A stretch of DNA of 64,000 nucleotides. It comes from Bacteroidaceae bacterium. GTDB taxonomy: Bacteria > Bacteroidota > Bacteroidia > Bacteroidales > Bacteroidaceae. Of this stretch, positions 39,201 through 55,991 are shown in pieces. The stretch is taken from positions 53,487 through 117,486 of the forward strand of contig JAGAZE010000022.1 of the NCBI GenBank assembly GCA_017940185.1. The letters are read 5' to 3'. Position 1 is the first letter of the stretch, and every line of letters begins with the position of its first letter. Made by a program: the position numbers and the translations under genes. The notes beneath the pieces were generated by a model that was not told the DNA's origin, did not search any database, and was given only the letters and a program-made list of their open reading frames with translations.

Positions 39201-42200
39201 GCGGCACAAACGCCAAGTTCCAGCCCATCATCTCCGATGCTGCCGAAGACGGAGGCATGCTCACCGTCAGCTACACATACACAGGCTCGTCCGCCGTCAA
39301 CTTCCAGATGACCGCCGAGGGATACAAGAAGAGCGACGTAGTGGTAAGCGCCCTGTCGGCAGAAGACATCAGCGTGAGCGAGGTGCTCAAGGGACAGACC
39401 GACGTGAAGATGCTGCAAGTGGCAGTGGAGGCTAAGGGTGAACTCACACCACTCAACATCACCGCCTTCGACATCACCGCCACTGGCGATGCCATCCAGA
39501 CGCAGCACATCTATGCCACGGGCACTACACCGTCATTCTCCACAAACAATGAGTTCAACGGCAACTACACCATCGAGCAGACCGGCACCTACTACTTCTG
39601 GGTGACCTGCGACATCAAGGCCGATGCCTCCGTCGGACAGACAGCAACCATGCGCCTCAACGGCATCACTGCCGGCATACACACCATAGCGGCCCCGACA
39701 GAGACACCCACCGCCAATGTCACCGTCACAAGCGGAAAGAGCGGTGTCTACACTGTAGGAGCTTCCGGAGCACAATACATCACCATACAACAGGCTGTCG
39801 ACGATATCGCAGCACTGGGAATGGAAGGACCTGTGACACTGCAGATTAAGGCGGGCAACTACAATGAGAAGGTGCGCATACCCTACATCAAGGGAATGGG
39901 AGCCGTCAACACGCTCACCCTCGAAAGCCAAAGCGGACAGCGCGACGTGAAGATCTATCACAACAGCTACTCCGCCGGAGGCTACTCCGACGACCAGCAC
40001 AAGAAGGACTATGGAGTGGTAACTCTCTACGAGGCCAGCTACGTCACACTGCGTCATCTCGACATCTCCACCACCGACAAAGCCTATAAGGCAGTAGTGA
40101 TGGTAAAAGACCAAAGCCGACACGTCACCATCGACGACTGCTACCTCCATGCACCCGTCTGCACAGCCAGCTCGGGTGAAGATGTGTGCCTCGTGGGACA
40201 CACCATCATCGACGAGGAGAACAAAAACAACGACTACCTAACCGTGAAAAACTGTCTGCTCGAAGGCGGTAAGATGGGTGTCAGCATGGGCGGCACTTCC
40301 TATGTGGCACTGCCGAAGGAGATAGGCGGCGTCATCGAAGGCAACACCTTCCTCAACAACGGACAGAAAGCCATCTACGTGATGGACGAACTCGGAGTGA
40401 AGATACGCAACAACGTTATCACCATCGAGCCCACAGCCAACAACAAGATCAGCGTCGGCATACTCGACATGCAGCTGCGCGACGACTACGACGAGAGCAC
40501 AGAGATCACCGGCAACATCTTCAACGTGGCGCCCAAGACCTACTGCGCCGTGATGAACTTCCGACAGATGCAGGGCACTGCTACGGCACCCGTCATCATT
40601 GCCAACAATGTGGTCAACCTCACGTCGCCCAATGCATCGACCAACCCCATCAAGTTTACCAATGCCACTACGCGCAACGTCTATGTGGCCAACAACACAT
40701 TCCGCATGAAGGGCAACAGCGGAGGTGCAGCATTCTGGCTCTCGGCACGACTCAACGACGAGGCACAGAACATCAACATCGTCAACAACATCTTCCAGAA
40801 TGAGACCAACGGTGCTGCCATCAGCATCTACGACGACACCAACGCAGCGAAGCTCAACTTCGCCAACAACCTCGTCTACACTGCCGGCACCACCTTCTAC
40901 CTGCCCAACTCGCAGAACTACGACTACTTCCTGACCACCACAGGCGCTACCGGCACCGTCAACAAGCTGGCATCGTTCCTCAGCGACAACGTGCTCGAAC
41001 CTGCCAACAACCTCGACGGCGACCTGCTCACAGCACAAGCGCTCAGCTATGTCACAACCGACATCAACGGCAACAGCCGACCGGCAACTGGAGGCACCAT
41101 CGGCGCCTACGAGTATAAGGCCAACGATGCAGCACTCATCATGAACGAAGGCTTCCCCGTGGCAACACTCATCACCGACTATACGGCAGTGGTCAACATC
41201 AATGCCAACGGCAATGGCAAGGCCTACATCGTCATACTGCCGGCAGAAGAGGACGGACCCGATGCCGAAACCATCGTGATGGGAGCCAACAGCGTCGACC
41301 TGCTCACCGACAAGACTAGCGAATACCTGGCCACCGGCCTGCAGAAAGATCAGGGCTACGTAGCCTACGTAGTGCTCGAGAGTCTGCGCGGCACGCTGAG
41401 CCGAGTGTATGCCTCCACACCGTTCACCGCCACCTCGACACCCGTTGACCCCGAACCGGAGACACTCACAGTGCAGGCGAACAGCACCACCACACCGCTC
41501 GCACAGCCTACGACACTCTCGGCAACCGTCAACGGCGGACGCGCACCCTATGCCGTCACATGGCGCGACAGCAAGCGTAACATCATCGGCACCGAAACGC
41601 TCGACACCCTGCCCACAGCACCCGTCACCATCAGCGTCACACCCACGGAGTGCACCGACTACACCGTGACAGTGACCGATGCACGCAACGTGAGCACTGC
41701 CGACACTCTGCGCGTCATCACCACAGGAGAGGCCGTGACAGCCACATTCGAAAACCTCTACCTCAACACCGAGAGCTACTGGAACGCCCGACGCGAAGAC
41801 CGTAAAGACAACCACACCTCCTTCGTCAACGGCTCCTACCGCTTCCACATCGACAACACCTACAACGGCACCACATGGGCTGGCTTCGGCTATGCCAACC
41901 GCACCGACAACGCTTACACAGCACTCTCACATCAGTGGAACAGTGCTCCTGGCGGTGCCTACGACGGATCCGACAACTATGCCGTGTTCTACTACTATGC
42001 CTCCGGTGCCAAGACCATCGATGTGCTCAACAACACCGAAGGCGACAGCATACGCGGTTTCTACATCGCCAACAATGCCTATGCCTACGCATCAATGACC
42101 AAGGGCGACAGCTTCGCAAAGAAGTTTGCACAGGGCGACTGGTTCAAGCTCACCATCAAGGCCGACAACGGCAACGAGACTGACTACTACCTCGCCGACT

Positions 42201-43285
42201 TCCGCAGCGACAATGCTGCCAACCACTATGTGCTCGACTCCTGGCAGTGGCTCGACCTCAGCAGCCTCGGCAAGGTGAAGACGCTCACCTTCTCCATGAG
42301 CAGCTCCGACGTAGGGGAATACGGCATCAACACGCCCACCTACTTCTGCATGGACAACTTCAACGCTCCCACACCCTGGCGCGACGCACCCACGCAGACA
42401 TCGGCAACGCTCACCACAACAGCAGACATCGCGGCACTCACTACGCTCAACCACGCAGGTGCCACCACCACCTACACCATCGTAGGCACGCTGCCGCAAG
42501 GCATCACTGCCACTATCGATGCCAATGGCATGGCCACCGTCACTGCTGGCACCGACCAAGAGTTCACCCTCTATGTCATGGCCACACAGCGTGGATGCAC
42601 CGACATGATGCGCATACCCTTCATCCTGGGTAATACTGCCACCGATGAAGAGGTGACCATCAGCAACGGCGGACTCGCCGACGATGGCTACTACTACGCT
42701 ACGCTCTACTATGCCGCCAAGGCACTCGTCGTGCCCGAGGGCATCACCGCCTACACTTACCGCGTCGACGACGGACACCTCAACGTATCGCACACCTATC
42801 TGGCTGGCGAGACCATCCCCGCCGCTCAGGGAGTGGTGCTGCAGGCAGCAGAGGCAGGCAGCTACACCTTCGCCAAGTCGACACTTGCCGGCACCGGCGA
42901 TGCGTTCTCCATGCTGCAAGGCTCCGACGACACCTACCTCGACGATGAGCAGGGCTACACCTACTTCATCCTCAGCCGTCCGCAGCAGCAGCCCGCTCAG
43001 GGCACAGGCGTGGGCTTCTGGTGGCAGGTAGACAAAGGCACCAGCGTGACCAACAATCCGCACAAGGCTTATCTGAAAGTGCCTGCCAGCCAGGCAAGCG
43101 GCTTGAAAGGCTTCACCTTCGATGGCGGCACCACAGGCATCACAATCGTCAACGGGAACGATAACGGCAACGTTGACAACGGCGAATGGTACACCATCGA
43201 CGGACAGCGCATAGACCGTCCGCGCCACGGCGTCAACATCATCAAGATGAGCGACGGCACCACACGCAAGGTCATCATCCGATGA
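36290..43285 (+). CDS. Giant 2331-residue secreted protein with repeated CUB/BNR-associated modules, beta-helix and DUF4465
   Basis: A signal peptide (LLLLLAFVMSVLQASAQ) is followed by four CUB-like modules (starting near 30, 345, 610 and 900) alternating with BNR-associated N-terminal-like modules (near 210, 480, 765 and 1020). A right-handed parallel beta-helix runs from about 1150 to 1610 (GAQYITIQQAVDDI, then NVYVANNTFRM, NINIVNNIFQN). Next come an Fn3-like domain, an Ig-like domain (APYAVTWRDSKRNIIG), DUF4465 (about 1817-2023), a further beta domain, and a long C-terminal module before the shared tail EWYTIDGQRIDRPRHGVNII. The beta-helix resembles pectate-lyase folds, but no catalytic set was identified. 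It follows its paralogue by 59 bases and is closed by a terminator, so all three genes form one B12-controlled unit. Confidence 0.83.
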   Translation: MITKSFTFRLLLLLAFVMSVLQASAQTSRTVNQLQLGKQTITVASDEVITFYDFKGEEDIPSANSSNSQSLTVFAPAVAGQSIQITFEQIDIIPDMASGSYPAFMKVYSGTPDDSGFTWATTTSQVTKTSTLPDGNVLVTRGGTVNSEAYTSTTPETYVSQSADGSMAVGFIYVYAKKCKGWKATVKAVTLDDMTVTGAGSDYNGINTTLKTKQNVPLANAYVTATGVMNPDNVTGIYFNMTKNEGMFDATTFKLFKGTTAVDATATAEGAGYKFTLNEVLAEGTTTFTIKGDILATAEIGAKAQVDITKITSTTHTDGITPFTAATAVEVVNPAIALMTSTPQTITVGEIPLAFFDEGGAEGGIVSKMNGQITFLSGTEGKKVMIDFTKNEIWHGTYYNQELRIYNGREVNAANLIKTLQQGETGIVRSTADDGSMTVVLYSDASNEIAANGWEATVSLFTPQAMDFNGQPTATAASTATVCAGDTEQDMLSINVKAQNTEPAMQLTKLAFSAGENFALVTKASLYKGADKVGETEVSAADFIITLSDAAALNEGDNLFTLKYDISSEALNNQKVSAQLTSVTAMVNNTEKTETATGAAAERTVDNVILNYKDQGTVTKIVNGSIAFESKPQSEYSSNYEGGSDTRTNIFIPKHEGSVCQIDFSAFDVYYASSTYGTKAKFIVYAGQGTSGEKLWELTSNADQKVGPGTILRSTAADGALTVVFSPNTSSSYYLTTGWKATVSEYKLKDMAINTVEVTQATTADASIGAAGQDLLIINVKTEGALNPITLSSIKLNMKGTEDNMTDVSLWHNDAKVAEATAATEVTLALVEPLQLNEGNNNFTVKADVSSSAAENSTIDARLVSINTGSDISVDNGDPEGARTLKNQVVMTNGNHGIMRLDLGQTIAIYDDGGPEGNGGKVESAVVTFAPTGNADCIRLTGQSFSINYAATINIYKGTEVNDEKKLASISGTNAKFQPIISDAAEDGGMLTVSYTYTGSSAVNFQMTAEGYKKSDVVVSALSAEDISVSEVLKGQTDVKMLQVAVEAKGELTPLNITAFDITATGDAIQTQHIYATGTTPSFSTNNEFNGNYTIEQTGTYYFWVTCDIKADASVGQTATMRLNGITAGIHTIAAPTETPTANVTVTSGKSGVYTVGASGAQYITIQQAVDDIAALGMEGPVTLQIKAGNYNEKVRIPYIKGMGAVNTLTLESQSGQRDVKIYHNSYSAGGYSDDQHKKDYGVVTLYEASYVTLRHLDISTTDKAYKAVVMVKDQSRHVTIDDCYLHAPVCTASSGEDVCLVGHTIIDEENKNNDYLTVKNCLLEGGKMGVSMGGTSYVALPKEIGGVIEGNTFLNNGQKAIYVMDELGVKIRNNVITIEPTANNKISVGILDMQLRDDYDESTEITGNIFNVAPKTYCAVMNFRQMQGTATAPVIIANNVVNLTSPNASTNPIKFTNATTRNVYVANNTFRMKGNSGGAAFWLSARLNDEAQNINIVNNIFQNETNGAAISIYDDTNAAKLNFANNLVYTAGTTFYLPNSQNYDYFLTTTGATGTVNKLASFLSDNVLEPANNLDGDLLTAQALSYVTTDINGNSRPATGGTIGAYEYKANDAALIMNEGFPVATLITDYTAVVNINANGNGKAYIVILPAEEDGPDAETIVMGANSVDLLTDKTSEYLATGLQKDQGYVAYVVLESLRGTLSRVYASTPFTATSTPVDPEPETLTVQANSTTTPLAQPTTLSATVNGGRAPYAVTWRDSKRNIIGTETLDTLPTAPVTISVTPTECTDYTVTVTDARNVSTADTLRVITTGEAVTATFENLYLNTESYWNARREDRKDNHTSFVNGSYRFHIDNTYNGTTWAGFGYANRTDNAYTALSHQWNSAPGGAYDGSDNYAVFYYYASGAKTIDVLNNTEGDSIRGFYIANNAYAYASMTKGDSFAKKFAQGDWFKLTIKADNGNETDYYLADFRSDNAANHYVLDSWQWLDLSSLGKVKTLTFSMSSSDVGEYGINTPTYFCMDNFNAPTPWRDAPTQTSATLTTTADIAALTTLNHAGATTTYTIVGTLPQGITATIDANGMATVTAGTDQEFTLYVMATQRGCTDMMRIPFILGNTATDEEVTISNGGLADDGYYYATLYYAAKALVVPEGITAYTYRVDDGHLNVSHTYLAGETIPAAQGVVLQAAEAGSYTFAKSTLAGTGDAFSMLQGSDDTYLDDEQGYTYFILSRPQQQPAQGTGVGFWWQVDKGTSVTNNPHKAYLKVPASQASGLKGFTFDGGTTGITIVNGNDNGNVDNGEWYTIDGQRIDRPRHGVNIIKMSDGTTRKVIIR

Positions 43286-43896: not shown

Positions 43897-44286
43897 ATGT
43901 CGCATGGTTTCTTTCTTTTTTTGACACGCGATGAGTTGTTGCGCATTCCATTTTCCAATATTGTTTACTTTGAAGGAGACGGAAACTATACAACCCTCAT
44001 GAGTATCAATAAGATAAAAAGCACACTTGCCATGAATCTTACACAGACAGAGCACCATCTTGCAAGGTCGCTTAAGAAAAACGCCTCTCTATTCATGCGT
44101 GTCGGGAAACGTTTTATCATCAACACTGAATACATCTACTCTATCAACACACTGCGCCGCTTTGTCATTCTCTCAGACGGGCGAACGTTTGCCTTTCGCA
44201 TGGAAGTGTCGAAAGAGGCAGTTAGAAAGATACGTGATATTGTTCTTATGCTCTACAGCCATGAATTACATGACAACAACAGGTAA
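43897..44286 (+). CDS. LytTR-domain DNA-binding protein
   Basis: 129 residues, almost entirely a LytTR domain: IPFSNIVYFEGDGNYTTLMS, HLARSLKKNASLFMRVGKRFIINTEYI and VILSDGRTFAFRMEVSKEA are the typical beta-strand blocks. LytTR proteins bind direct repeats in promoters. No receiver or membrane domain is attached, so the input signal is missing; it may be a stand-alone regulator of the signalling cluster that follows. 241 bases separate it from the FHA gene, with no other gene in that gap. Confidence 0.85.
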   Translation: MSHGFFLFLTRDELLRIPFSNIVYFEGDGNYTTLMSINKIKSTLAMNLTQTEHHLARSLKKNASLFMRVGKRFIINTEYIYSINTLRRFVILSDGRTFAFRMEVSKEAVRKIRDIVLMLYSHELHDNNR

Positions 44287-44527
44287 TCTTTTATTTATGA
44301 ACGACGACAAGCCATTTTCACAATCCTATCATCGGTTTTCCGACTAGGCTCCACACTACTACATATTGCGCACGACTTATTGCAATAATAAAACGTCAAG
44401 CCGCTATATTCTTGGTTGCTGACAACTTCGTACAGCATCCTTCGGCTTAAATCGATGATAAGTCTCGCTTCTTTGAAAACCATTTCCTTGAATATAATTC
44501 ATTCACTTCTCAACAAAAATCATAAAT

Positions 44528-45238
44528 ATGAGTACATCAGAAATCATCATTGGTCGTGACCCGCAAACGCAACAATTACGCATTACTGTCGGCAAGCAAT
44601 CACGTCAGGTTGGCAATACCGGAAGTGTGCCGCTCAGCGTAAGTCGCCAACATGTCGGTATTACCATGAATGCGAACGGCACATACACGCTGCGAAACAT
44701 CAATTCTCAGAACACCACTTATGTGAATGACATGCCAGTGGAACGGAAATTAGTAACGACAAAGGATATCATCCGACTCGGTTCTGAACACTATCGCCTC
44801 GACTGGCAGTTATTAATGTCCGTGTTACCCAAGCAGGCTAACCTGCGGCATCTTGCAGTGGCATACGATAACTATCAGCAACAGATGATGGCGCTAACAA
44901 CAAAAGAACGGAAATTCAACACCCTGAAAGGAGCGATGTCTATCTTTACCATGAGTGCGATGCTGCTCGGTTTTCTTGGACTGAATGGAGGTGAAGGGGA
45001 GAGGAGTCCGCTTCTAATCGGTCTTTATGTTGTAGCGCTGCTCATAGGTGTTGGTACCACTATATGGTCATTCATCTACGCCAGTAAGATACCCCAGGAA
45101 CGTGACCGCATGCAAAAGGAATTTGAACAACGGTACTGCTGTCCTAATTGCGGCTATTACTATGGTGTGCTGTCATACAATCAACTTAAGCTGCGCTTCA
45201 AACAATGTCCTAACTGCAAGACACAATACTCGTTCTGA
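44528..45238 (+). CDS. FHA-domain membrane protein with C-terminal zinc ribbon
   Basis: 236 residues. The N-terminal FHA phosphothreonine-binding domain (about 1-90) has IIIGRDPQT, the core SVSRQHVGI and TYVNDMPV, corresponding to the conserved GR, SxxH and NG-type positions. Two membrane helices follow at about 140-185 (SIFTMSAMLLGFLGL; LLIGLYVVALLIGVGTTIW). The C-terminal zinc ribbon is CPNCGYYYG ... CPNCKTQYSF. The FHA domain should face the cytoplasm, where it could bind targets of the kinase encoded downstream. It is the first FHA gene of the cluster. Confidence 0.85.
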   Translation: MSTSEIIIGRDPQTQQLRITVGKQSRQVGNTGSVPLSVSRQHVGITMNANGTYTLRNINSQNTTYVNDMPVERKLVTTKDIIRLGSEHYRLDWQLLMSVLPKQANLRHLAVAYDNYQQQMMALTTKERKFNTLKGAMSIFTMSAMLLGFLGLNGGEGERSPLLIGLYVVALLIGVGTTIWSFIYASKIPQERDRMQKEFEQRYCCPNCGYYYGVLSYNQLKLRFKQCPNCKTQYSF

Positions 45239-45340
45239 GTACTGCTCAGCCATAATCAGAATGAAAGGAGGTGCTATCAAGCAGAAAACCTATCAGTTTG
45301 TACACTAATCAGCCTATGTTGTGTAGTAAGCAAACAATTC

Positions 45341-45373
45341 TTTGCATACCCCTACTCTACCTTTTTATCTTTG
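45341..45373 (+). promoter_or_regulatory. Promoter of the caspase/FHA/PP2C/kinase unit
   Basis: TTTG (45341-45344) and TATCTTTG (45366-45373) are 21 bases apart, a full-consensus promoter about 80 bases before the gene at 45452. The following genes up to the kinase have gaps of 30 bases or less, so this probably drives all of them. Confidence 0.75.
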
Positions 45374-45451
45374 TACTCATAAAATCCGAACTAATTAACC
45401 ATTGCATAAAACTTACCTGCAAAATCGTATTCACCCTTAACACCAACTATT

Positions 45452-46546
45452 ATGGAGCCAAACGATGAAACCCTGTATCAGTCAAACAGTCCCGAACAGA
45501 TGAACAATGACATGACCCCGCCGCCTTTTGAGTCTTCAACCGCATCACCTGCTGATGATTCAAAAGAAGAAAAAAACAACTCTTGGAAAAAAGTAGTCAT
45601 TGGAGGTACAACCGGCATTCTTCTCGGTGGTGCAGCAATGTATGCGACAAACGCCATGGCGGCTAGCGAAACCTATCCATCCGAGGAACCATCTCAAAAC
45701 CATTCTCAGGAAATACAGCAACAGCAGCAGGCGACCATTGCCCAACAACAGGCAACCATTGCTCAACAACAGGCAACCATCGCCCAACAACAGGTGACCA
45801 TCGCTCAGCAACAACATCCCGACATTGAAGAGCCTATGCCCTACAATCCGTATGATGATTTGTCATTTGATGAGGCATTTGCAGCAGCCCGTGCAGAGGT
45901 GGGTCCAGGTGGAGTGTTCCATTGGCATGGTGGTGTGTACGGCACTTTCTATGCTGAAGAATGGAGTGCTATGTCGGAAGATGAGCGAATGACATTTTAT
46001 CAGGCGACTCAAGACGAAATTCTTGAGTCTGACGGTCACTCTTTCGCCCATCATATCGACACTCCAGTCGCTTCACCCATGGCGGCAGTTCACAGCGATG
46101 ATGTAGCAGAAACTCCAGCAAAAGATAATAGTACTTTACAGACAGATGATGATAGCATATTGCGGGCATCACAGGAAGAGGAATCAGGTGTTAAAACCAT
46201 CGCAGATGTTGTAGAGAAGATGGATGATGTCCATCTCGTACGCGAAGACTTTCATGATGACGGCAGTGTAATACGTGTGTACAATGTTGATGACATCAAC
46301 GCCGTTGGTTTTGATATTGATGGCAACGGACAGAACGATGTTGCTGCTGTTGACATGAATCATAACAACGACCTTGATCAAGGTGAGATGGTGCGTACTG
46401 ACACTATGGAACCACTTGACCTCAATGAATTAGCTGCTGCCGCGGAAAGCGAGTCTGAGCCATATCTGCATGATGCCTCCTATGACAATTCTGTTGAAGA
46501 CAACAGCATGCCTGACTACATGGATGATGCCTCTGTTGATCTGTAA
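45452..46546 (+). CDS. Acidic single-pass membrane protein with QQQATIA repeats
   Basis: 364 residues. A cytoplasmic-looking N-terminus with PPPFESS and a KKEE-rich stretch precedes one membrane helix at about 48-68 (VVIGGTTGILLGGAAMYATN). Then come about five copies of the heptad-like QQQATIA, a likely coiled coil. The outer part is very acidic and contains the calcium-loop-like segments DIDGNGQND and DMNHNNDLDQGE. No family is recognised. It is the first gene after the strong promoter and lies 29 bases before the caspase gene, so it probably belongs to the signalling cluster, perhaps as a surface or periplasmic sensor (inference). Confidence 0.7.
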   Translation: MEPNDETLYQSNSPEQMNNDMTPPPFESSTASPADDSKEEKNNSWKKVVIGGTTGILLGGAAMYATNAMAASETYPSEEPSQNHSQEIQQQQQATIAQQQATIAQQQATIAQQQVTIAQQQHPDIEEPMPYNPYDDLSFDEAFAAARAEVGPGGVFHWHGGVYGTFYAEEWSAMSEDERMTFYQATQDEILESDGHSFAHHIDTPVASPMAAVHSDDVAETPAKDNSTLQTDDDSILRASQEEESGVKTIADVVEKMDDVHLVREDFHDDGSVIRVYNVDDINAVGFDIDGNGQNDVAAVDMNHNNDLDQGEMVRTDTMEPLDLNELAAAAESESEPYLHDASYDNSVEDNSMPDYMDDASVDL

Positions 46547-46575
46547 TCTTCACCCTTTATTATCACGCGCCACGC

Positions 46576-47289
46576 ATGCTACGAACCCTTATACTTACGT
46601 TGACAGCCCTGCTGTGCACACATGCTGTTCACGGCAGGACATTCGTGGTGTGTGCCGGCATCAGCGATTATCCAGGAACGTTCAATGATCTTCATGTGTC
46701 TGACAATGATGCACGTACTTTGCATCGGATATTTCAGAAGAACGGTGCATCCTGCACCACGTTAGTCAACAACGATGTCACCGTTCAGCGTCTGCTTGCA
46801 GCGCTGCAGGTATCATTCATGCAAGCCTCATCAAAAGATATCATTATCTTCTTCTTCAGCGGCCACGGCTATCCAGGTGGATTGTGCCTGTACGACACAC
46901 GGCTGGCATATGAAAACATTTTTGATATCATGCGGAAAAGTCATGCCGGCAGCAAAATCATCATTACTGATGCCTGTTTCGCAGGTAAAATGCGCAAAAA
47001 TGAGTCACGCCCCCAAATGACCTCTCCCCGCAATATCATGCTTTTCCTCTCATCCCGATCAGCAGAGAAATCAATTGAAGGTCCTCACCGCAATTCACTA
47101 TTTACCCTTCATCTGGAACGAGCTCTGCGCGGTGGTGCAGATATTAACCGAGATCGTGTAATTACAGCTTCTGAACTATTCAGCTATGTTCACCAACGCG
47201 TTGTCAGGGCCTCAGGAGGAAGGCAACATCCTGTCATGTGGGGAAACTTTAACAAGAATATGCCTGTAATAAAATGGCATGAAAAATAA
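46576..47289 (+). CDS. Secreted caspase-fold peptidase (C14/metacaspase-like)
   Basis: 237 residues with an N-terminal signal peptide (LILTLTALLCTHAVHG). The caspase p20 fold is clear: FVVCAGISDYPG, then DNDARTLHRIF. The catalytic His97 is in FFFSGHGYPGG and the catalytic Cys134 in ITDACFAGK. LFLSSRSAEKSIEG and SLFTLHLERAL follow as in peptidase C14 proteins. Both catalytic residues are intact. The signal peptide points to the periplasm or surface, away from the cytoplasmic kinase domains. Substrate is unknown; bacterial caspase-like proteins often act in stress or self-limiting responses. Confidence 0.88.
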   Translation: MLRTLILTLTALLCTHAVHGRTFVVCAGISDYPGTFNDLHVSDNDARTLHRIFQKNGASCTTLVNNDVTVQRLLAALQVSFMQASSKDIIIFFFSGHGYPGGLCLYDTRLAYENIFDIMRKSHAGSKIIITDACFAGKMRKNESRPQMTSPRNIMLFLSSRSAEKSIEGPHRNSLFTLHLERALRGGADINRDRVITASELFSYVHQRVVRASGGRQHPVMWGNFNKNMPVIKWHEK

Positions 47290-47309
47290 TACATCACAAA
47301 TCATTACCA

Positions 47310-47906
47310 ATGCCACAGAAGAAACGCGTAAAATGTCCGCACTGTGAACAACTGCTTGATGTTGTTAATAGCCGAAACGAAAAAGTGAAGACCATTTCCT
47401 GTCTGAAATGTGGTGGGCGGATGAATGTGCAGTTCCTTCACCCTTCATCTGACGATGAGATTATTCCCAATGCCGAGACAGTACATCAACAGCGCCCCCA
47501 TAATGTTGCAGGAACCATTTATGGCGGCAAACCCCAAAGACCGAAAGACGAATCAAATGATGTGCCGCAGAGGGTATGGCATGTTGTTTTAAGAGATACC
47601 AATACCGACCGCTCCTACCCTCTGCAAATGGGACGCAACATTGTAGGAAGAGCGAGTGCAAGCTCCGAAGCCGACGTACAGATTGATACCAACGACCGTT
47701 TTATGAGCCGCCAACATTTGCTCATCACCCTCGTCCCAAAATCTGGATTGTCCCCGTTAAAGGTCACCTTACAGAACTATCAGAATAAAAATGTTACATA
47801 TGTAAATGGTGTACCTCTTGATAAAGCCGATATTGTCGTACTTGAGAATGGCTCAACGATTAAGATGGGCAATAGCATCTTACACATCCAATTCCAGGAA
47901 CAATGA
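47310..47906 (+). CDS. FHA-domain protein with N-terminal zinc finger
   Basis: 198 residues. The N-terminus has a four-cysteine finger CPHCEQ ... CLKCGGRMN (MJ0042-like). After a linker, the FHA domain lies at about 95-195, with YPLQMGRNIVGRAS, DRFMSRQHLLITL and NVTYVNGVPLDKADIV; the conserved Arg, Ser-Arg-Gln-His and Asn-Gly are present. Cytoplasmic. Its stop overlaps the PP2C start by four bases (ATGA), tying it to the phosphatase and kinase. Confidence 0.88.
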   Translation: MPQKKRVKCPHCEQLLDVVNSRNEKVKTISCLKCGGRMNVQFLHPSSDDEIIPNAETVHQQRPHNVAGTIYGGKPQRPKDESNDVPQRVWHVVLRDTNTDRSYPLQMGRNIVGRASASSEADVQIDTNDRFMSRQHLLITLVPKSGLSPLKVTLQNYQNKNVTYVNGVPLDKADIVVLENGSTIKMGNSILHIQFQEQ

Positions 47907-49324
47907 AAATAGAACTACATTCTCCTATCATTATCCATGAACTCGGTAAACGAGCCAATCAGGAAGACTGCTTCAACAACACGTCTCATCTCTTCGTACT
48001 ATGCGATGGTATGGGCGGACATGAAAAAGGTGAGGTCGCAAGTCAGATGGTAACAGAAAGTCTGACAGGAACCCTTGAGCCTTTGGTCGGCTATAATCAT
48101 CATCTTACCGACGACGAACTGAATCTTGCCATTGAATGTGCTTATAGTGCTTTAGATGCCAAAGCACCTGTATCAGCTGCACACATGGGTACTACGTTGA
48201 CTCTGCTTGCCTTCCACCAAGGTGGAGCTACGGTGGCACATATCGGCGACAGCCGCATCTACCATATCCGTCCTTCAGCACATAGCATGCTATATAAATC
48301 AATGGATCATTCTCTTGTCTATGAACTGTTCCGTGCCGGAGAGATTTCTTTCGATGAAATGAGTACACATCCAAGAAAGAATATCATAACACGAGCAATG
48401 CAACCCGGAGCGGACAAAAGGGTAAAAGCCGACATTGCACATATTGCAGATATTCAGAAAGGCGATTGCTTCTACTTGTGCTCTGACGGAATGCTGGAAC
48501 AAATGGACGATTTCGAACTGCTTAATCTGCTGTGTTCAAATGCCAGTGATGAAAAAAAACGACAGCAGTTTCTCGCTGCAACGGCAGACAATGCAGACAA
48601 TCACACTGCCTTTATCGTAAGAGTGAAACACGTTGAACATGAAGCTGGCGATGAAAACAACATTAATGACGAAGCAACTGCACGATGTAATGCTCTGAGA
48701 GTGGACCCTCTGCTTGATGCAACTGATGCAGACGATGTTGCCATAGCAGTAGAAAATGTCTCCTCCCCGTCATCAGTTAAAGTGCAGCCAACACCACAGA
48801 AATACCAGCAAAAAAACGCAGAACAGGTATCGGGAATAACAACGCCGGTACCTATGCATACCACACCATATGTCCATAGCAACAAAACAAAGAAAAGTAA
48901 GTTGCCCCTGATGCTGTTTGCACTCCTCTTTCTCATCGCACTGGTAGCAACGGGAATACTTTTGTTGCGAAAAGACAATAATCGTGAAAAGGAATATGGC
49001 CGAGACGTTATGGAGGAACATTTTAATAGTCCTAGAGAAGATTATGAAAGAAATACTATGAAAGAAACAAGAAAAGATAATAGACACAAGATTAAGAGTA
49101 ACAGAGGACATATTAAAACGAGCAGAGAAGATATTGAGAAAATAGAGGAACAAAAGAAAGATAAAATGGATAGTGAAACAAAAGAAAACGATACACAACA
49201 CGCCCCTACCGAAAACACAAGCACTTCAGACAATATAGAGGAAAAGAAAGACCAGGAAATAAAAAACGGAATGGCAAAAGTTTTTAGAGATCTAAATAAT
49301 ACCAAAACAAACCATGAACACTAA
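47903..49324 (+). CDS. PP2C-type Ser/Thr phosphatase with membrane anchor
   Basis: 473 residues. The PP2C catalytic domain (about 1-245) has the metal-binding Asp22 in RANQEDCF and Asp35 in LCDGMGGHEKG. MGTTLTLLAF, VAHIGDSRIY and YLCSDGMLEQM follow as expected. A low-complexity linker is followed by one membrane helix at about 333-355 (LPLMLFALLFLIALVATGILLL) and a highly charged Lys/Glu/Asp tail outside. It should reverse the action of the downstream kinase. It overlaps the FHA gene by 4 bases and the kinase gene by 11. Confidence 0.92.
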   Translation: MKIELHSPIIIHELGKRANQEDCFNNTSHLFVLCDGMGGHEKGEVASQMVTESLTGTLEPLVGYNHHLTDDELNLAIECAYSALDAKAPVSAAHMGTTLTLLAFHQGGATVAHIGDSRIYHIRPSAHSMLYKSMDHSLVYELFRAGEISFDEMSTHPRKNIITRAMQPGADKRVKADIAHIADIQKGDCFYLCSDGMLEQMDDFELLNLLCSNASDEKKRQQFLAATADNADNHTAFIVRVKHVEHEAGDENNINDEATARCNALRVDPLLDATDADDVAIAVENVSSPSSVKVQPTPQKYQQKNAEQVSGITTPVPMHTTPYVHSNKTKKSKLPLMLFALLFLIALVATGILLLRKDNNREKEYGRDVMEEHFNSPREDYERNTMKETRKDNRHKIKSNRGHIKTSREDIEKIEEQKKDKMDSETKENDTQHAPTENTSTSDNIEEKKDQEIKNGMAKVFRDLNNTKTNHEH

Positions 49325-50783
49325 TATCGACCATCTTTCTGCCAACACTATGCTTAATGGTGGCAGATACCGCATAGATGCCTTCTTGGCCTCTGGAGGC
49401 TTTGGCAACACGTACCGTGCCACACGTACCGACTTCAACGAGACAGTTGCCATCAAGGAGTTTTTCATGAAAGAAGTCTCACAACGCGATACCGACAGTC
49501 GATCCGTCACAGTGACACATCCCGACGGCATAGAAAAATTTGAGGAGCAAAAGAATAAGTTCTTCATCGAAGCAGAGCGTATGCGGACGCTGCGACATCC
49601 GCATATCATAGAAGTAATCGACAGGTTTAAGGAAAACAACACAGCCTACTATGTTATGGAGTATATTCATGGCGGTACCCTTGCCGAGTATGTCGGCAAG
49701 CACGGGGCTGTCAGTGAGGAGATGGCAAAGAAGTATTTGTTGCACATTCTCGATGCGTTGCAGACCGTTCATGAGAATGGTATCTATCATCTTGACATCA
49801 AGCCCTCCAACATCATGATTGACGAGCGTCGAGACCGTGCCATTCTCATTGACTTCGGTGCTTCTAAGCAGATGTCTGCCGAGACAGGCATCACGCTTGG
49901 TTCTGCATTATGCTATACGCCGGGCTATGCACCTTCAGAACAGGTAGAGCAGGCACATGATAAGTTTGGTCCATGGACAGATCTATATGCTCTCGGCGGC
50001 ACCCTCTACTTTGCCACGACGGGCGAGAAGCCGCCGCTGCCTTCTGCCATTAATGAGGAAGGTGAGCGAGCTTTTCACTTTCCCAGCGGCATGAGTCAAG
50101 AGATGCGTCACCTCATCCTATGGATGATGTCTCCGATGAGACCTTCAAGACCGCAAACAGTGAATGAGGTACTGAAACTACTGCAGAGCCCGCCACCTTT
50201 TGATGACAGCGATGAAACTAAACTATCAGGTGGTAAACAAGGGGATGCTGGTAAAAAGGACACACCGCCGATAATCCACGGCAATGGTGATGACAGGAAA
50301 CCTTCGAGCAGAAGTCACTGGTATATTGCCCTTGGAGTAATTGCGGTGTTCTTGTTCATAATCATTATCGCCGGCAGTCAAGGAGATGGAATGACGGAAG
50401 CATCTATTTGGGAAGAACAGAGTGATACTATTGATAGTGTTCCAGGAACAATAGAAGAACCAGAGCCCGATTATGATGACTTATCAGATTGGACTGGTTG
50501 TGAACTATCTGGTTGGATTGGCGAGTACAATGTTGACATGGTCTTAGAACGAGAGAGCGGGAGCGATGAGGTGACAGGTTCTTACGAATATCTAAAAACT
50601 GGTAGCACGTTGAATTTAAGTGGTAGTCTTTACAACAACTTATTGGAACTGGATGAAACTAACCAATATGGTGAAGAAACAGGGCATTTTAAAGGAGAAT
50701 TATCAGAAAGAGGTTTTAGATATAGAGGCGAATTTACCAATTACAAAGGAGAATCTTTCCGATTTGATTTAGCTGTGCAGTAA
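49314..50783 (+). CDS. Transmembrane Ser/Thr protein kinase
   Basis: 489 residues. The Hanks-type kinase domain (about 15-285) has the glycine loop ASGGFGNTY, Lys48 in VAIKE, Glu88 in the alphaC region, HLDIKPSN with Asp161, and DFG with Asp180; the APE region is APSEQ. HLD replaces the usual HRD, so it lacks the arginine that typically couples to activation-loop phosphorylation. A membrane helix lies at about 334-353 (WYIALGVIAVFLFIIIIAG). The outer domain of about 110 residues ends GEFTNYKGESFRFDLAVQ and resembles the protein encoded next. It overlaps the phosphatase gene by 11 bases. Confidence 0.93.
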   Translation: MNTNIDHLSANTMLNGGRYRIDAFLASGGFGNTYRATRTDFNETVAIKEFFMKEVSQRDTDSRSVTVTHPDGIEKFEEQKNKFFIEAERMRTLRHPHIIEVIDRFKENNTAYYVMEYIHGGTLAEYVGKHGAVSEEMAKKYLLHILDALQTVHENGIYHLDIKPSNIMIDERRDRAILIDFGASKQMSAETGITLGSALCYTPGYAPSEQVEQAHDKFGPWTDLYALGGTLYFATTGEKPPLPSAINEEGERAFHFPSGMSQEMRHLILWMMSPMRPSRPQTVNEVLKLLQSPPPFDDSDETKLSGGKQGDAGKKDTPPIIHGNGDDRKPSSRSHWYIALGVIAVFLFIIIIAGSQGDGMTEASIWEEQSDTIDSVPGTIEEPEPDYDDLSDWTGCELSGWIGEYNVDMVLERESGSDEVTGSYEYLKTGSTLNLSGSLYNNLLELDETNQYGEETGHFKGELSERGFRYRGEFTNYKGESFRFDLAVQ

Positions 50784-50839
50784 TGTACCAAACGAAAAAC
50801 AATAATTCTGAATCAATCTGGCATTCAAACATACTGATT

Positions 50840-51280
50840 ATGAAAACAACTATTTTCTCAGCCGTAATGATGTTCACGGCATTGTCGCTAAATGCTAATC
50901 AACCACTTAAAGAGGTTAAAAATACTCATAGCGCTGCTGCCAGCGAAGCACCCGATAATGATGGTATTCAAGCTAACGCTTTGTACAAGTTCAAAGGCAC
51001 TATCGGAACTCATCGCGTTACATTTGTATATGAATATTGGGTACAAAGTCAAATACGCGAAGAACAACTCACCTACATGTACGACAAAATAGGTAAAGAA
51101 ATATATTTGTCATACAAGGGAAGAAACGGTAAATATAGAATCTTTAAAGAATATGTCAACGGACGTTGCACGGGAACATTTAACATCAACATCACTCCAG
51201 AAACGATTACAGGACATTTCGTAAACTACAAAAATCAGAGGTTTAAAGTGTATGCCAAATGCATATCATACGGGTACTAA
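50840..51280 (+). CDS. Small secreted protein resembling the kinase outer domain
   Basis: 146 residues with a signal peptide (MKTTIFSAVMMFTALSLNA); the start at 50840 is chosen because it opens this peptide. The mature part (YKFKGTIGTHRVTFVYEYWV ... ITGHFVNYKNQRFKVYAKC) shares a pattern with the kinase's C-terminus: GxIGxxxV, then GxFxNYKxxxFxxxxxx. It lies 56 bases after the kinase stop. It may bind the same ligand or compete with or complement the receptor domain; this is inference. No named family is recognised. Confidence 0.7.
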   Translation: MKTTIFSAVMMFTALSLNANQPLKEVKNTHSAAASEAPDNDGIQANALYKFKGTIGTHRVTFVYEYWVQSQIREEQLTYMYDKIGKEIYLSYKGRNGKYRIFKEYVNGRCTGTFNINITPETITGHFVNYKNQRFKVYAKCISYGY

Positions 51281-51345: not shown

Positions 51346-52014
51346 ATGAAATACGTAAAAACATCTCTCATTATCATGATGCTGATAAACGTATCAGTCC
51401 TATGCATGGCATGTACCTCCTCCAAAGAGGAAACTGTAAAACAATCTATCGAGATTCCCTCACGTTTGGTTGCCGTTGACCTAGGTCTGCCTTCTGGCAC
51501 ATTATGGGCGAATATGAATCTGGGAGCCACAAGTCCTGAAGAATTCGGAGATTACTTTGCCTGGGGTGAAACGACACCTAAAAGAAGTGACACAGGTAAG
51601 TGGAACAATTACCAACATGTGAATGGAACAACAGAGTCGTGTCGGGATATTGGCAACGACATAAGTGGAACCAACTACGATGCCGCGCATGTGAAATGGC
51701 AAAGAAAGTGGCAAATTCCTACTGCAGAACAATTTCTTGAGTTGATGCTATTATGTGAATACGAGCTCACCTCTCGCAATGGTATAAAGGGGTACTTATT
51801 TACAAGTAATATTAATAGTAAAAGTATTTTTCTCCCTTTAGCACACGAGGCAGGTGGCGTGATTGGAGCATTCGGATGTTATTGGTCGTCAACAATTTTC
51901 GAAGACGACAATGGAAGAGCGGATGTGTTTTTTATGGACGAATTCAACGAAGTAGATGTAAAAAGCAGTTCACGTTGTTCTGCCTTGAGCATTCGCCCAG
52001 TCTGCAGACCATAA
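51346..52014 (+). CDS. FISUMP-domain lipoprotein
   Basis: 222 residues with a lipobox (VLCMAC, Cys23). The mature protein is one FISUMP (Fibrobacter succinogenes major paralogous) domain: VDLGLPSGTLWANMNLGA, DYFAWGETTPK, WQIPTAEQFLELM, CYWSS and LSIRPVCRP. Such domains occur on Bacteroidetes surface proteins, related to the SUMF1/C-type lectin-like group, with no known catalytic role. 65 bases follow the previous gene; it may be the last gene of the kinase unit before the repeat element at 52018. Confidence 0.85.
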   Translation: MKYVKTSLIIMMLINVSVLCMACTSSKEETVKQSIEIPSRLVAVDLGLPSGTLWANMNLGATSPEEFGDYFAWGETTPKRSDTGKWNNYQHVNGTTESCRDIGNDISGTNYDAAHVKWQRKWQIPTAEQFLELMLLCEYELTSRNGIKGYLFTSNINSKSIFLPLAHEAGGVIGAFGCYWSSTIFEDDNGRADVFFMDEFNEVDVKSSSRCSALSIRPVCRP

Positions 52015-53077: not shown

Positions 53078-54682
53078 ATGAACCACATCAAACAAATCCT
53101 CTGCAAGGCACTTCTGCTAACAAGTATCCTGCTGTCGACAACAGCTACGCAAACATGGGCGCAAGATGACGTCTGGCAAATTGCAGACCAACTCAGAGAA
53201 AAATACGAGGAAGTGCAGTACACATACAATGAAGTGTTTTGCGCAAAGATCAACGACGCATGGGAATTTGTTGATGCCAAAGGCAAAGTGCTCACCAATA
53301 TGGGCATCAGTGAAGTGAAAGATAAAGTATCCGGACTTGAAATCACTGTAAATGGCAAAAGATACATCGCAGAAAAGCCCGTCAGCAACAACCAAATGCT
53401 TGTCAACCGCTATGGCAGATATGCCTACATGAACTTGCAAGGAAAACTGCTGACAGACTTCGTGCTCAATGAAGAAGGAGAGGACACCTACGACAAAAAA
53501 GAGTCCGAAAACATCATCAAAACAAACGAAATCGTAGAACAGCTCGAAGATGCATTCATCGTGGTAGACACGACAATGACCTATGGTGTGGAAAAATGCA
53601 ACAAGGTCATTGCCCAACTGAGCAAGCACGACCCGCTACTCTTATCAACTGACAATGCCGAAACGCTCACTGCCTGCATCTACCAAGTAGCCAAAGAGTA
53701 TTCCGACAAATTGGATAAGAAAGCCATAGCATCCATCTACGATGCACTCTACAAAAGTCCACACAGCAACGACAACACCATCAAAGCCATCGCAGGATAT
53801 CGCATGCAATTGGCTGACGACATGGAAGACTTCAAAATCGTGAGCGAGATAGTAGACCGCGTGGGCGATGAGGAATCACATTATGTCTACGCAGAGATGT
53901 TGGCCAACGGCAGAGGATGCACACAGGATATACCACAAGCCATACACTACTACCAAAAAGCAGCCAACGACAACATGTTTCCCGGCAGCTACGGCGAAGC
54001 CGCCAAGCAAGCACTACGCACATTATGGCACAACCATGGCAATGCCTACAACAACCCTTACGGCCACCTACTCACACGCTACGATGATTATATCCTGGTG
54101 CCTACATTCCTCGTTTCCGACGATAGGCAATATATACTCGTAAAAAAGGGCTGGGCAATAGGACTGTGCGACTCTACCTTCAATGAAGTCCTGCCCTGCA
54201 AATATAATAGTATCGAGAATATGCACCACCCACTCTATGTGGTCAGAACCGAAAATGGCATGCAACTCATAACACAGGGAGGGAAAACACTCACCGATGA
54301 CAACTATGAAGATATAAAATTGTATTACTCAGATGAGACACAACAGTTCACCGTCCTCGCACAAAGTGGCGAAAAATGGAGCATACTCGACCAACAAGGC
54401 AAAACTATAGTGCCGCCCCTCTTCGATGAAATAGATGTTGCCTACAATTTCGGTTCCACTTTACCCATCGTGAAAAAGGGAGACAAAGCCTACGTCATAC
54501 ATCGACCGTTCAGAAACCAACGAGCCATAGTCGTAGAAAACGAACACTACGGACTGATGGATACAAACGGAAAAATAGTAGTGCCATGCAAGTACACCAA
54601 CATCGAAGACTACCAGGAAGGTGCCACAACCACAAGGGCCACACAGCAAGACGGCAGAACCATCAACATCAACCTGAAGTAA
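53078..54682 (+). CDS. Secreted Sel1- and WG-repeat protein
   Basis: 534 residues with a signal peptide (LLLTSILLSTTATQTWAQ). The first about 110 mature residues have WG-like pieces (DAWEFVDAKGKVLTNMG; RYAYMNLQGKLL). One Sel1-type repeat is visible near 275-300 (GRGCTQDIPQAIHYYQKAA). The C-terminal half has WG repeats such as KKGWAIGLCDSTFNEVLPCKY, EKWSILDQQGKTIVPPLFDE and HYGLMDTNGKIVVPCKY. WG/KWG repeats occur in surface or secreted proteins of Bacteroidetes and probably mediate binding. 22 bases precede the YARHG gene. Confidence 0.8.
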   Translation: MNHIKQILCKALLLTSILLSTTATQTWAQDDVWQIADQLREKYEEVQYTYNEVFCAKINDAWEFVDAKGKVLTNMGISEVKDKVSGLEITVNGKRYIAEKPVSNNQMLVNRYGRYAYMNLQGKLLTDFVLNEEGEDTYDKKESENIIKTNEIVEQLEDAFIVVDTTMTYGVEKCNKVIAQLSKHDPLLLSTDNAETLTACIYQVAKEYSDKLDKKAIASIYDALYKSPHSNDNTIKAIAGYRMQLADDMEDFKIVSEIVDRVGDEESHYVYAEMLANGRGCTQDIPQAIHYYQKAANDNMFPGSYGEAAKQALRTLWHNHGNAYNNPYGHLLTRYDDYILVPTFLVSDDRQYILVKKGWAIGLCDSTFNEVLPCKYNSIENMHHPLYVVRTENGMQLITQGGKTLTDDNYEDIKLYYSDETQQFTVLAQSGEKWSILDQQGKTIVPPLFDEIDVAYNFGSTLPIVKKGDKAYVIHRPFRNQRAIVVENEHYGLMDTNGKIVVPCKYTNIEDYQEGATTTRATQQDGRTININLK

Positions 54683-54704: not shown

Positions 54705-55991
54705 ATGAAAGCCAAAACATATCTGCAATCTCTCGTAGGCAGCGTCATGCTCGCATGCACCCTACACCAACCTCTCCAAGCCAACGACCAAGTGTTCTTC
54801 GTCAACGGAAGCTCACTCACACCAATACACGAAACCGACATCGCCGTACAAAAAGAAGTGCTCACCATTCAGATTGGAGACGATGGCTTCGCACACGTCG
54901 TCGTAGACTACCAGTTCTATAACACAGGCAACGCCAAAACCGTCACTGTTGGCTTTGAGGCACAACACCCCTCATCCACCGACGTAGATTACCGATTTCA
55001 GTGGGGAAAGCCACATCCCCACATCAGAGACTTCAGCGTGGTGATGAACGGAAAAAAACTCCCTTACAATATCGGATGTGTGTCAAGACCTTTTGAAGAG
55101 GATTCCACCATCGCTTACGACCCTACCCAATTCCCTTTTCTCAACCCCGCCCAATGGCGTACACAGGTAGAATCCGACCCGCCGCTGTGGGATAGTTATG
55201 CCGATGGGCTGTCGCTCTTCAACCCAAAAACGAAAGAATACACCGAATACGCGTATGTGTATCACTTTCAGGCACACTTCCAACCAGGGATGAACACCGT
55301 GCGACATACCTATCGCTACCGCATGTCCCTTGGAGTCGGTACGGCATTCAGGATACCCTATTGGCTCACTCCGGCCATGAACTGGGCAAACCATCAGATA
55401 GACGACTTCACGCTGCGCATAGTGGCAAACAACACCACCAAACACTTCTTCGTCTACAACGACGCTCTTCCCACCAACGCTTTCCGAATCGTAGGCGGAC
55501 AGGGCAAGATGCGAACCATCACCGTGCAGAGCAGAGATTACATCACCCATCCACATGCCACAGAACAAGTCACAGAAGTCGTGCTGCGCAATGCAACACT
55601 CGAGTGGCATGCCCTACAGTATCACACAGACGCAGACCTCGAGATAAACTCTGCCGATGATTTGCGATACATGGACAACAATCCCGAACGTGAAAGCATG
55701 CTATACTACGACAGCGGCAACACCTACTGCATGTTTGGATGGTATATAAGATACGACAAACTCTATACAGGTCCCGACAACGAAGCACTGAAACAAGCTT
55801 TTACAGCCCGAATAAGGAGAAATCTTCCCTATGCACACAGAGGATATGTATTCAAAGATAAAGAGTTGAGATCCATATTCGAAAAACAATGGTGGTACAT
55901 GCCCGACCCGACATGGAAGCCACAAAAAAACACGTTCTCATCACATGAGCAACAACTTATAAACAACAGCGATAAATTTGATACGTGGTGA
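54705..55991 (+). CDS. Secreted DUF4424-like protein with C-terminal YARHG domain
   Basis: 428 residues with a signal peptide (LVGSVMLACTLHQPLQA). The N-terminal region (EVLTIQIGDDGFAHVVVDYQFYNTGNAKTVTVGF) has the pattern of DUF4424, which describes added domains of YARHG proteins. The C-terminus has the YARHG motif in variant form (LPYAHRGYVFKDKELRSIF, then EKQWWYMPD) at about 373-405. YARHG is a presumed extracellular, peptidoglycan- or ligand-binding domain. The change from YARHGY to YAHRGY is a local swap within the motif. Confidence 0.78.
   Translation: MKAKTYLQSLVGSVMLACTLHQPLQANDQVFFVNGSSLTPIHETDIAVQKEVLTIQIGDDGFAHVVVDYQFYNTGNAKTVTVGFEAQHPSSTDVDYRFQWGKPHPHIRDFSVVMNGKKLPYNIGCVSRPFEEDSTIAYDPTQFPFLNPAQWRTQVESDPPLWDSYADGLSLFNPKTKEYTEYAYVYHFQAHFQPGMNTVRHTYRYRMSLGVGTAFRIPYWLTPAMNWANHQIDDFTLRIVANNTTKHFFVYNDALPTNAFRIVGGQGKMRTITVQSRDYITHPHATEQVTEVVLRNATLEWHALQYHTDADLEINSADDLRYMDNNPERESMLYYDSGNTYCMFGWYIRYDKLYTGPDNEALKQAFTARIRRNLPYAHRGYVFKDKELRSIFEKQWWYMPDPTWKPQKNTFSSHEQQLINNSDKFDTW

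Follow-up and report, generated by a model that had tools for sequence, protein, structure and literature searches.

We analyzed a 64-kb stretch of DNA (the window) from a Bacteroidaceae genome of 2.09 Mb and 89% completeness, in which absent sequence could hide further genes. The window contains a single-strand cluster that encodes, in order, a LytTR regulator, an FHA protein with hydrophobic membrane segment(s) (FHA1), an acidic membrane protein (CC), a secreted caspase-fold protease, a second FHA protein (FHA2), a PP2C phosphatase, a transmembrane Hanks kinase and a small secreted protein following the kinase (SEN) (Table 1). A sequence-only reading of this DNA had named the genes from LytTR to the kinase and proposed that they form one pathway. 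All of them are open on the plus strand at the positions and in the order it described, their domain calls hold in Pfam searches, and the overlaps of 4 bases between FHA2 and PP2C and 11 bases between PP2C and kinase were both reproduced; kinase and SEN overlap by a further base. Hydropathy indicated one hydrophobic segment in the window copy of FHA1 and two in 41 of 72 relatives. The cluster is a real, conserved arrangement of known enzyme kinds together with an untyped membrane protein.

Table 1. Features of the kinase–FHA–PP2C–caspase cluster and its downstream neighbors in the window.
Feature	Position	Strand	Evidence
LytTR DNA-binding regulator, 129 amino acids (aa)	43897-44286	+	Pfam LytTR 1.1e-9; receiver domain not found
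FHA1: N-terminal FHA (IGRD, SRQH), hydrophobic membrane segment(s), C-terminal CxxC zinc ribbon	44528-45238	+	Pfam FHA 6.1e-10
Promoter-like TTTG-N21-TATCTTTG	45341-45373	+	Exact pattern match; ends 79 bases before CC start codon
CC: short cytosolic tail, one marginal membrane segment, acidic outer region	45452-46546	+	Alignments, hydropathy
DETLY, threonine motif, CC residues 5-9 (proposed phosphosite/FHA ligand)	45464-45478	+	Strict pattern
Secreted caspase-fold protease, 237 aa: His97, Cys134, Asp45, Asp132, conserved QHPVMWG	46576-47289	+	Pfam Peptidase_C14 1.8e-21
FHA2: N-terminal zinc ribbon, flexible linker (AETVH, GTIYG), C-terminal FHA (SRQH)	47310-47906	+	Pfam FHA 4.7e-12
PP2C phosphatase (DGMGG, GDSR), membrane segment near residue 330, charged tail	47903-49324	+	Pfam PP2C_2 1.6e-8
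Transmembrane Hanks kinase (HLDIKPSN, DFG), juxtamembrane DETKL, membrane segment ~332-355, small outer domain	49314-50783	+	Pfam Pkinase 9.2e-43
SEN, small secreted protein resembling kinase outer domain	50783-51280	+	blastp, Smith-Waterman
Secreted protein, domain family also built into kinases	51346-52014	+	Profile search
WG/Sel1 domain gene downstream of cluster	53078-54682		Pfam
DUF4424-YARHG extracellular protein downstream of cluster	54705-55991		Pfam

Relatives of the caspase were sought in 399 genomes of the family, its own included (E up to 1e-10), and in a named genome collection, from which the best 80 of 189 stretches were kept. The latter loci include Segatella copri, Leyella stercorea, Bacteroides caecigallinarum, B. 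bouchesdurhonensis and Odoribacter lunatus, and many others come from rumen and gut metagenome genomes. Neighborhoods from 40 of the 43 other family genomes, the 80 named loci and the window gave 121 loci for comparison, whose open reading frames (ORFs) were called mechanically and then searched with profiles grown from the window proteins. Deduplication by caspase sequence left 108 distinct loci, of which 107 entered the junction count and one was without a called caspase gene; the neighborhoods of G036, G280 and G393, added later, stand outside the junction and locus counts. The order counts are lower bounds, as contig-cut loci are included and mechanical ORF calling misses genes. CC was the immediate upstream neighbor of the caspase in 79 of 107 distinct loci and FHA2 the immediate downstream neighbor in 79 of 106, followed by PP2C in 74 of 105. 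FHA1, CC, FHA2, PP2C and kinase were all found in 67 of 107 loci, contig-cut loci included, and relatives contained 71 LytTR–FHA1 junctions. The gene order is conserved; a lack of co-occurrence among relatives, on which the sequence-only reading said that the single-pathway idea would fail, did not turn up.

The genes also co-vary. Pairwise distances of the caspase correlated with those of LytTR, FHA1, CC, FHA2 and PP2C at r = 0.73–0.82, and those five correlated among themselves at r = 0.69–0.79. Kinase distances gave r = 0.39–0.47, with kinase orthology uncertain owing to duplications, and kinases are the exchangeable part of the cluster. The highest permuted value over all gene pairs was 0.26 (60 permutations per pair). 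Caspase matches occurred in 44 of the 399 family genomes and CC matches in 40, with both present in 30 genomes (about 4.4 expected if independent, kinship ignored) and 14 of the 44 caspase genomes giving no CC match. Phylum-wide, 5 of 395 genomes contained CC, the source genome among them. A genome-wide Pfam search of the source genome returned few Hanks-signaling genes, namely one Pkinase, one PP2C_2 and three FHA proteins, two of them in the cluster, and a caspase search returned one match. Because the genes co-occur and co-vary and the search found only a single Hanks kinase and a single PP2C in this genome, the simplest interpretation is one pathway, and pathway unity is likely.

Transcription is best read as two units, LytTR–FHA1 (sometimes with a kinase) and CC–caspase–FHA2–PP2C–kinase. 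The pattern TTTG-N21-TATCTTTG, which we take to be a Bacteroidota-type promoter, occurs four times in the window versus 0.76 expected per 64 kb, and none of 100 shuffles reached four. Sought in junctions longer than 40 bases, with shorter gaps scored as none, it was present in 26 of 46 FHA1–CC gaps and 8 of 13 kinase–CC gaps from distinct loci, and in 2 of 439 junctions of ten other listed types (types with at least eight cases). CC–caspase and caspase–FHA2 junctions carried it in 0 of 79 and 1 of 79 cases, respectively. Longer gaps favor such sites before CC, yet the chance density is far lower. The site that the sequence-only reading had taken as one strong promoter at the head of the whole set is present and rare by chance, but it sits after LytTR–FHA1 and leads CC onward. 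Because the promoter-like site recurs in the gap before CC, LytTR–FHA1 is probably its own transcription unit, and a single transcript would run from CC onward.

The strongest mechanistic clue is a threonine motif limited to the cytosolic side of CC, of the kinase and, less surely, of FHA2. By reading, the sites EETI, DETLY, EATQY, GATQL and HTIYG recurred in CC tails and FHA2 linkers, and a strict and a loose pattern were drawn from the first data set. Strict sites numbered 102 in CC tails and occurred in 68 of 79 segments (1,000 shuffles: mean 2.7, maximum 8); reduced to dissimilar segments, the tails held 79 strict sites in 52 of 61 versus 2.4 expected. Of 92 FHA2 linkers, 26 held strict sites (33 in total; shuffle mean 2.9, maximum 9) and 64 held loose ones (99 in total; shuffle mean 13.5, maximum 27). 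The strict motif accounted for 22.8% of threonines in the CC tail, 8.5% in the kinase juxtamembrane stretch and 4.9% in the N-terminal part of FHA2, compared to 0.9% in 992 unrelated ORFs, 0.3% in the CC outer region, 0.2% in the caspase and 1.2% in the kinase outer part; shares were 0.8% in PP2C linkers, 1.7% in FHA1 and 0.2% in LytTR. Applied unchanged to 20 later-fetched loci, the patterns gave 6 strict sites versus 0.3 and 11 loose versus 1.4 in CC, and 4 strict versus 0.7 (within shuffles, maximum 6) and 11 loose versus 2.4 (maximum 10) in the kinase linker. The window CC carries a strict site, DETLY, and its Thr7 column is invariant in a 51-row alignment. We read the motif as a candidate kinase phosphosite and FHA ligand. 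The third FHA protein of the source genome, encoded on another contig, C32 (L182:1195-1773), combines a zinc ribbon with an FHA domain without SRxH and has FDETQYSEGH within the zinc ribbon; its neighbor is a protein of 328 aa in which a single hydrophobic segment was recognized by eye. This FHA protein is possibly another reader.

CC itself gave no match in a Pfam search of the window copy, and no consistent family emerged among its relatives (DUF7167 in 9 of 51, best 1.2e-5; EF-hand_5 in 2 of 51). Its outer region contains an undescribed conserved domain, SFxEAFxxARxxVGxGGxFxWxGxxYxT, as well as a DIDGNGQND loop, and the protein has a C-terminal PDYMDDA tail. The window copy has a marginal membrane segment (hydropathy peak of 1.52, below threshold in a second hydropathy scan), which is clearer in relatives. 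A C-terminal D-Y/F-x-N/D tail occurred in 54 of 79 CC proteins beside a caspase and in 3 of 12 without one; as a caspase docking mark it was set aside as a post hoc pattern in related sequences, a lead only. In four divergent loci where the CC profile was blank, the gene beside the caspase encodes a different protein that, judged by eye, has an acidic outer region and a single hydrophobic segment close to the N-terminus. In many loci (L102, L101, L117, L110 and others), genes for two secreted proteins, one leucine-rich-repeat-like (~350 aa) and one of ~130 aa, are inserted ahead of CC or separate two CC genes. Two loci from other families of the class, with no caspase seen nearby, contain two CC copies (L160) or a CC with its conserved outer domain repeated (L162). 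The CC of caspase-less L170 is without the threonine motif and the C-terminal DYxND tail, no kinase is seen before the contig ends, and the locus is a possible partly decayed system.

The distinct loci contain 157 kinases longer than 330 aa. A Pfam scan covered 80 kinases, made up of the window kinase and 79 out of the 113 complete kinases in the named loci. The kinase domain was present in all and the remainder varied. For the 25 of 39 families listed, counts included FGE-sulfatase (8), Lcl_C (6), TonB_C (5), PEGA (4), CarbopepD_reg_2 (4), Sel1 (3) and WG (2), and the L118 kinase has an LRR_5 outer domain; TonB_C, FGE-sulfatase, Lcl_C, PEGA, Sel1, WG and LRR_5 are Pfam-supported. MORN-like repeats were visible by eye in many kinase tails, with Pfam scores of 15.2 and 10.3 under the cut-off of 22.5. 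The domain family of the secreted protein encoded downstream of SEN, which in the window has no significant Pfam match, is present in 23 of the 157 kinases. The kinases thus carry swappable outer domains, which suggests a general receptor chassis in gut bacteria. The window kinase's outer domain resembles SEN (blastp E 2e-4; Smith-Waterman score 63 versus a shuffle mean of 28.7, with 0 of 5,000 shuffles as high), and a profile search of the other loci found no SEN relatives. The idea of a matched sensor protein therefore stands for the window but not as a general pairing of kinase outer domains with secreted neighbors, for which 6 of 102 tails had a same-locus blastp relative versus a permuted mean of 5.0 and maximum of 11, in a test of low power where only 32 of 102 tails match anything.

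The caspase has the features of orthocaspases/metacaspases (C14B), namely a caspase p20 fold with a His-Cys dyad and the two acidic residues of the basic-P1 pocket. His97 and Cys134, described as intact in the sequence-only reading, are invariant in 21 of 21 aligned caspases, the window's included, and Asp45 and Asp132 occur in 21 and 20 of these, respectively. Both align with acids of metacaspase-1, 4f6o. In TbMC2, two such acids accommodate basic residues according to the part of the source available (PMC6426788); the mapping onto Asp45 and Asp132 is our own. Because these residues match the metacaspase acids, we propose that the enzyme would cleave after Lys or Arg. Its signal peptide was judged by eye, and the EACC1-associated caspase model NF047832 scored 79.7, under its curated cut-off of 140. 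A second, longer caspase-profile protein (463 aa) follows the kinase in L104 (past 12181-13791) and also occurs at L033:13272-14663. Distant caspases appeared in 22 plasmid records, all below 60% identity (five among the matches listed).

We propose that the cluster is a trans-envelope serine/threonine phosphosignaling locus. The kinase outer domain would sample the periplasm, and the kinase would phosphorylate threonines in acidic-T-x-hydrophobic motifs in its own juxtamembrane stretch, the cytosolic tail of CC and probably the FHA2 linker. Membrane-bound FHA1 and soluble, zinc-ribbon-bearing FHA2 would bind the phosphothreonines and so bring CC, the kinase and adaptors together in a complex that PP2C would reset. 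CC would carry the state through the membrane to the acidic domain on its outer side; the secreted orthocaspase, in loci that have it, may be the periplasmic executor, or be held and released by CC, and LytTR would form the transcriptional arm. We consider the odds on this mechanism as a whole to be even. A sharper version is a caspase pathway under phosphorylation control that spans the inner membrane. In it, a Hanks kinase with swappable sensor domains would write a short threonine tag on CC (as scaffold receptor), on itself and on an adaptor, both FHA proteins would read the tag, and the periplasmic orthocaspase would be licensed by the CC state that results; this strikes us as unlikely to hold in full. 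If true, it would amount to a modular receptor-kinase/adaptor/protease cascade analogous to eukaryotic death-receptor signaling in logic, not in descent.

Several observations weigh against this proposal. Shared ancestry or joint transfer also produces distance correlations of this kind, and the motif patterns were derived from the first data set. FHA2's FHA domain and the kinase catalytic part show strict shares of 5.5% and 2.4%, the former attributed to the domain's own N-x-TYVN segment. In the 20 later loci, FHA2 gave 2 strict sites versus 0.5 and 4 loose versus 2.2, both within shuffles. The window kinase's DETKL fits the loose pattern only, and AETVH and GTIYG of the window FHA2 meet neither. 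Of 12 caspase-less CC proteins, 5 have the strict motif, versus 68 of 79 beside a caspase. A simple GR/SRxH pattern fits only 41 of 72 FHA1 proteins; 12 of the 31 misses were looked at and mostly have an insertion or other variant there. By one pattern, the CC outer domain is kept in 10 of 12 caspase-less CC proteins versus 63 of 79 beside a caspase, and it is therefore not dedicated to the caspase. Lastly, six loci (L165, L168, L170, L171, L172 and L173) hold CC–FHA2–PP2C without a caspase.

In these six loci, the caspase's usual slot between CC and FHA2 was read and found empty, and their genomes (78–89% complete) gave no caspase match at E up to 1e-10. The 10 CC genomes without a caspase also include two loci cut at CC and one with only a minor CC form; in L174, which has CC and no caspase match, PP2C directly follows CC and FHA2 was not detected. 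Outside the family, four genomes from elsewhere in the class supplied five CC loci; all five have FHA1, CC and FHA2, four have PP2C, and a caspase lies nearby only in L161. The caspase as an obligatory end point, as the single-pathway claim had it, was not borne out. These loci, and the outer domain that CC keeps without a caspase, favor a rival view in which the kinase–FHA–PP2C–CC core is one pathway with transcription (through LytTR) or envelope remodeling as its output, and the caspase is a co-transcribed accessory, for example in periplasmic quality control, outside kinase regulation. The caspase nevertheless tracks the core genes as closely as these track one another and occupies one slot whose two junctions are almost free of promoter-like sites; we regard the accessory role as possible, though on balance doubtful. 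Because it co-varies with the core, yet leaves an empty slot in some loci, the caspase is an integral but dispensable limb of the cluster. Within the phosphosignaling proposal, it would act downstream of the kinase, and a role as regulated output is plausible. To our knowledge, the role of bacterial caspases is largely open.

The patchy distribution of the caspase in the family could also fit a role in anti-phage defense or altruistic death, with the kinase detecting invasion and the caspase doing the killing. The kinase received high scores from the PADLOC kinase models of PD-T4-6 and MADS, but these match mainly on the kinase domain; LytTR, FHA1, CC, caspase, FHA2 and SEN, six of eight proteins, match no PADLOC model, and PP2C gave a single weak match (17.9 bits, in its tail), to a PD-T4-6 model. 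The caspase is moreover secreted, away from cytosolic targets. A phage origin of the cluster was also rejected, near-identical DNA not being found in phage records, where distant relatives were not sought. We consider such a defense role very improbable. Kinase, PP2C, FHA proteins and outer sensor domains are likewise the kinds found in kinase-controlled secretion or cell-wall systems such as the type VI secretion PpkA/PppA/Fha threonine phosphorylation pathway or PASTA-kinase sets, which makes a function of this type conceivable. We nonetheless rejected the type VI link, the sheath gene VipB (PF05943) being absent from the 89% complete genome; the PASTA-kinase model scored 147.9, under its cut-off of 450, and no wall-synthesis family occurred among the window neighbors scanned. 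Such a secretion or wall system seems improbable. The window PP2C reached 159.5 bits against the Stp1/IreP model, under the cut-off of 230. Directly upstream of the cluster, a 2331-aa protein (36290-43285) contains DUF4465 and a BNR-associated domain; evidence for its membership in the cluster was not found.

A description of this gene set was not found in the open-licence PubMed Central literature, which is not proof of absence, and searches of it on Hanks kinase/FHA signaling in Bacteroidota returned almost nothing. In the portions available, the main text of a Hanks-kinase review (PMC6213207) has no word beginning Bacteroid or Prevotella, the operon section of a metacaspase survey (PMC3501461) names no such operon and its main text lacks 'FHA', and 'LytTR' and 'secreted' do not occur in the main text of PMC7159879. 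The co-inherited set is compact, the genome offers few further candidates for partners, the candidate phosphosite motif is precise and the domain of the membrane protein is untyped, so substrates, readers and output are directly testable. That the set has been kept together in many species of gut and rumen bacteria suggests a signaling route across the cell envelope.

Among known systems, the kinase-PP2C-vWA sets of nucleoside triphosphate-dependent conflict systems share the adjacency of kinase and PP2C, as far as the accessible text describes them (PMC7159879), whereas no vWA match occurred among the window proteins scanned. PASTA-domain PknB/Stk1 kinases differ in that no PASTA match was found in the window kinase or among the 25 of 39 families listed for the 80 kinases. 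YARHG/DUF4424 is an extracellular module linked elsewhere to serine/threonine kinases through fusions and once to a secreted caspase, in the part of the report available (PMC3355149); here, unlike in such fusions, DUF4424-YARHG is a separate gene. The protease resembles orthocaspases/metacaspases in its dyad and acidic pocket residues, as these are described in the available part of PMC6426788, but unlike others it has a fixed place in a kinase–FHA–PP2C locus. A parallel in layout is GarA/OdhI with PknB/PknG and Ppp of Actinobacteria, where a Hanks kinase, a phosphatase and FHA proteins likewise share one cluster. According to the accessible portion of PMC2784874, a threonine near the N-terminus of GarA/OdhI is, once phosphorylated, bound by the protein's own FHA domain, a precedent for an N-terminal-region phosphothreonine read by an FHA domain. 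The OdhI model scored 25.1 on FHA1, under its cut-off of 200, and was not listed for FHA2. In contrast to GarA/OdhI, the candidate phosphothreonine occurs here not just in an FHA linker but also in a membrane protein and in the kinase, and the cluster includes a secreted caspase.

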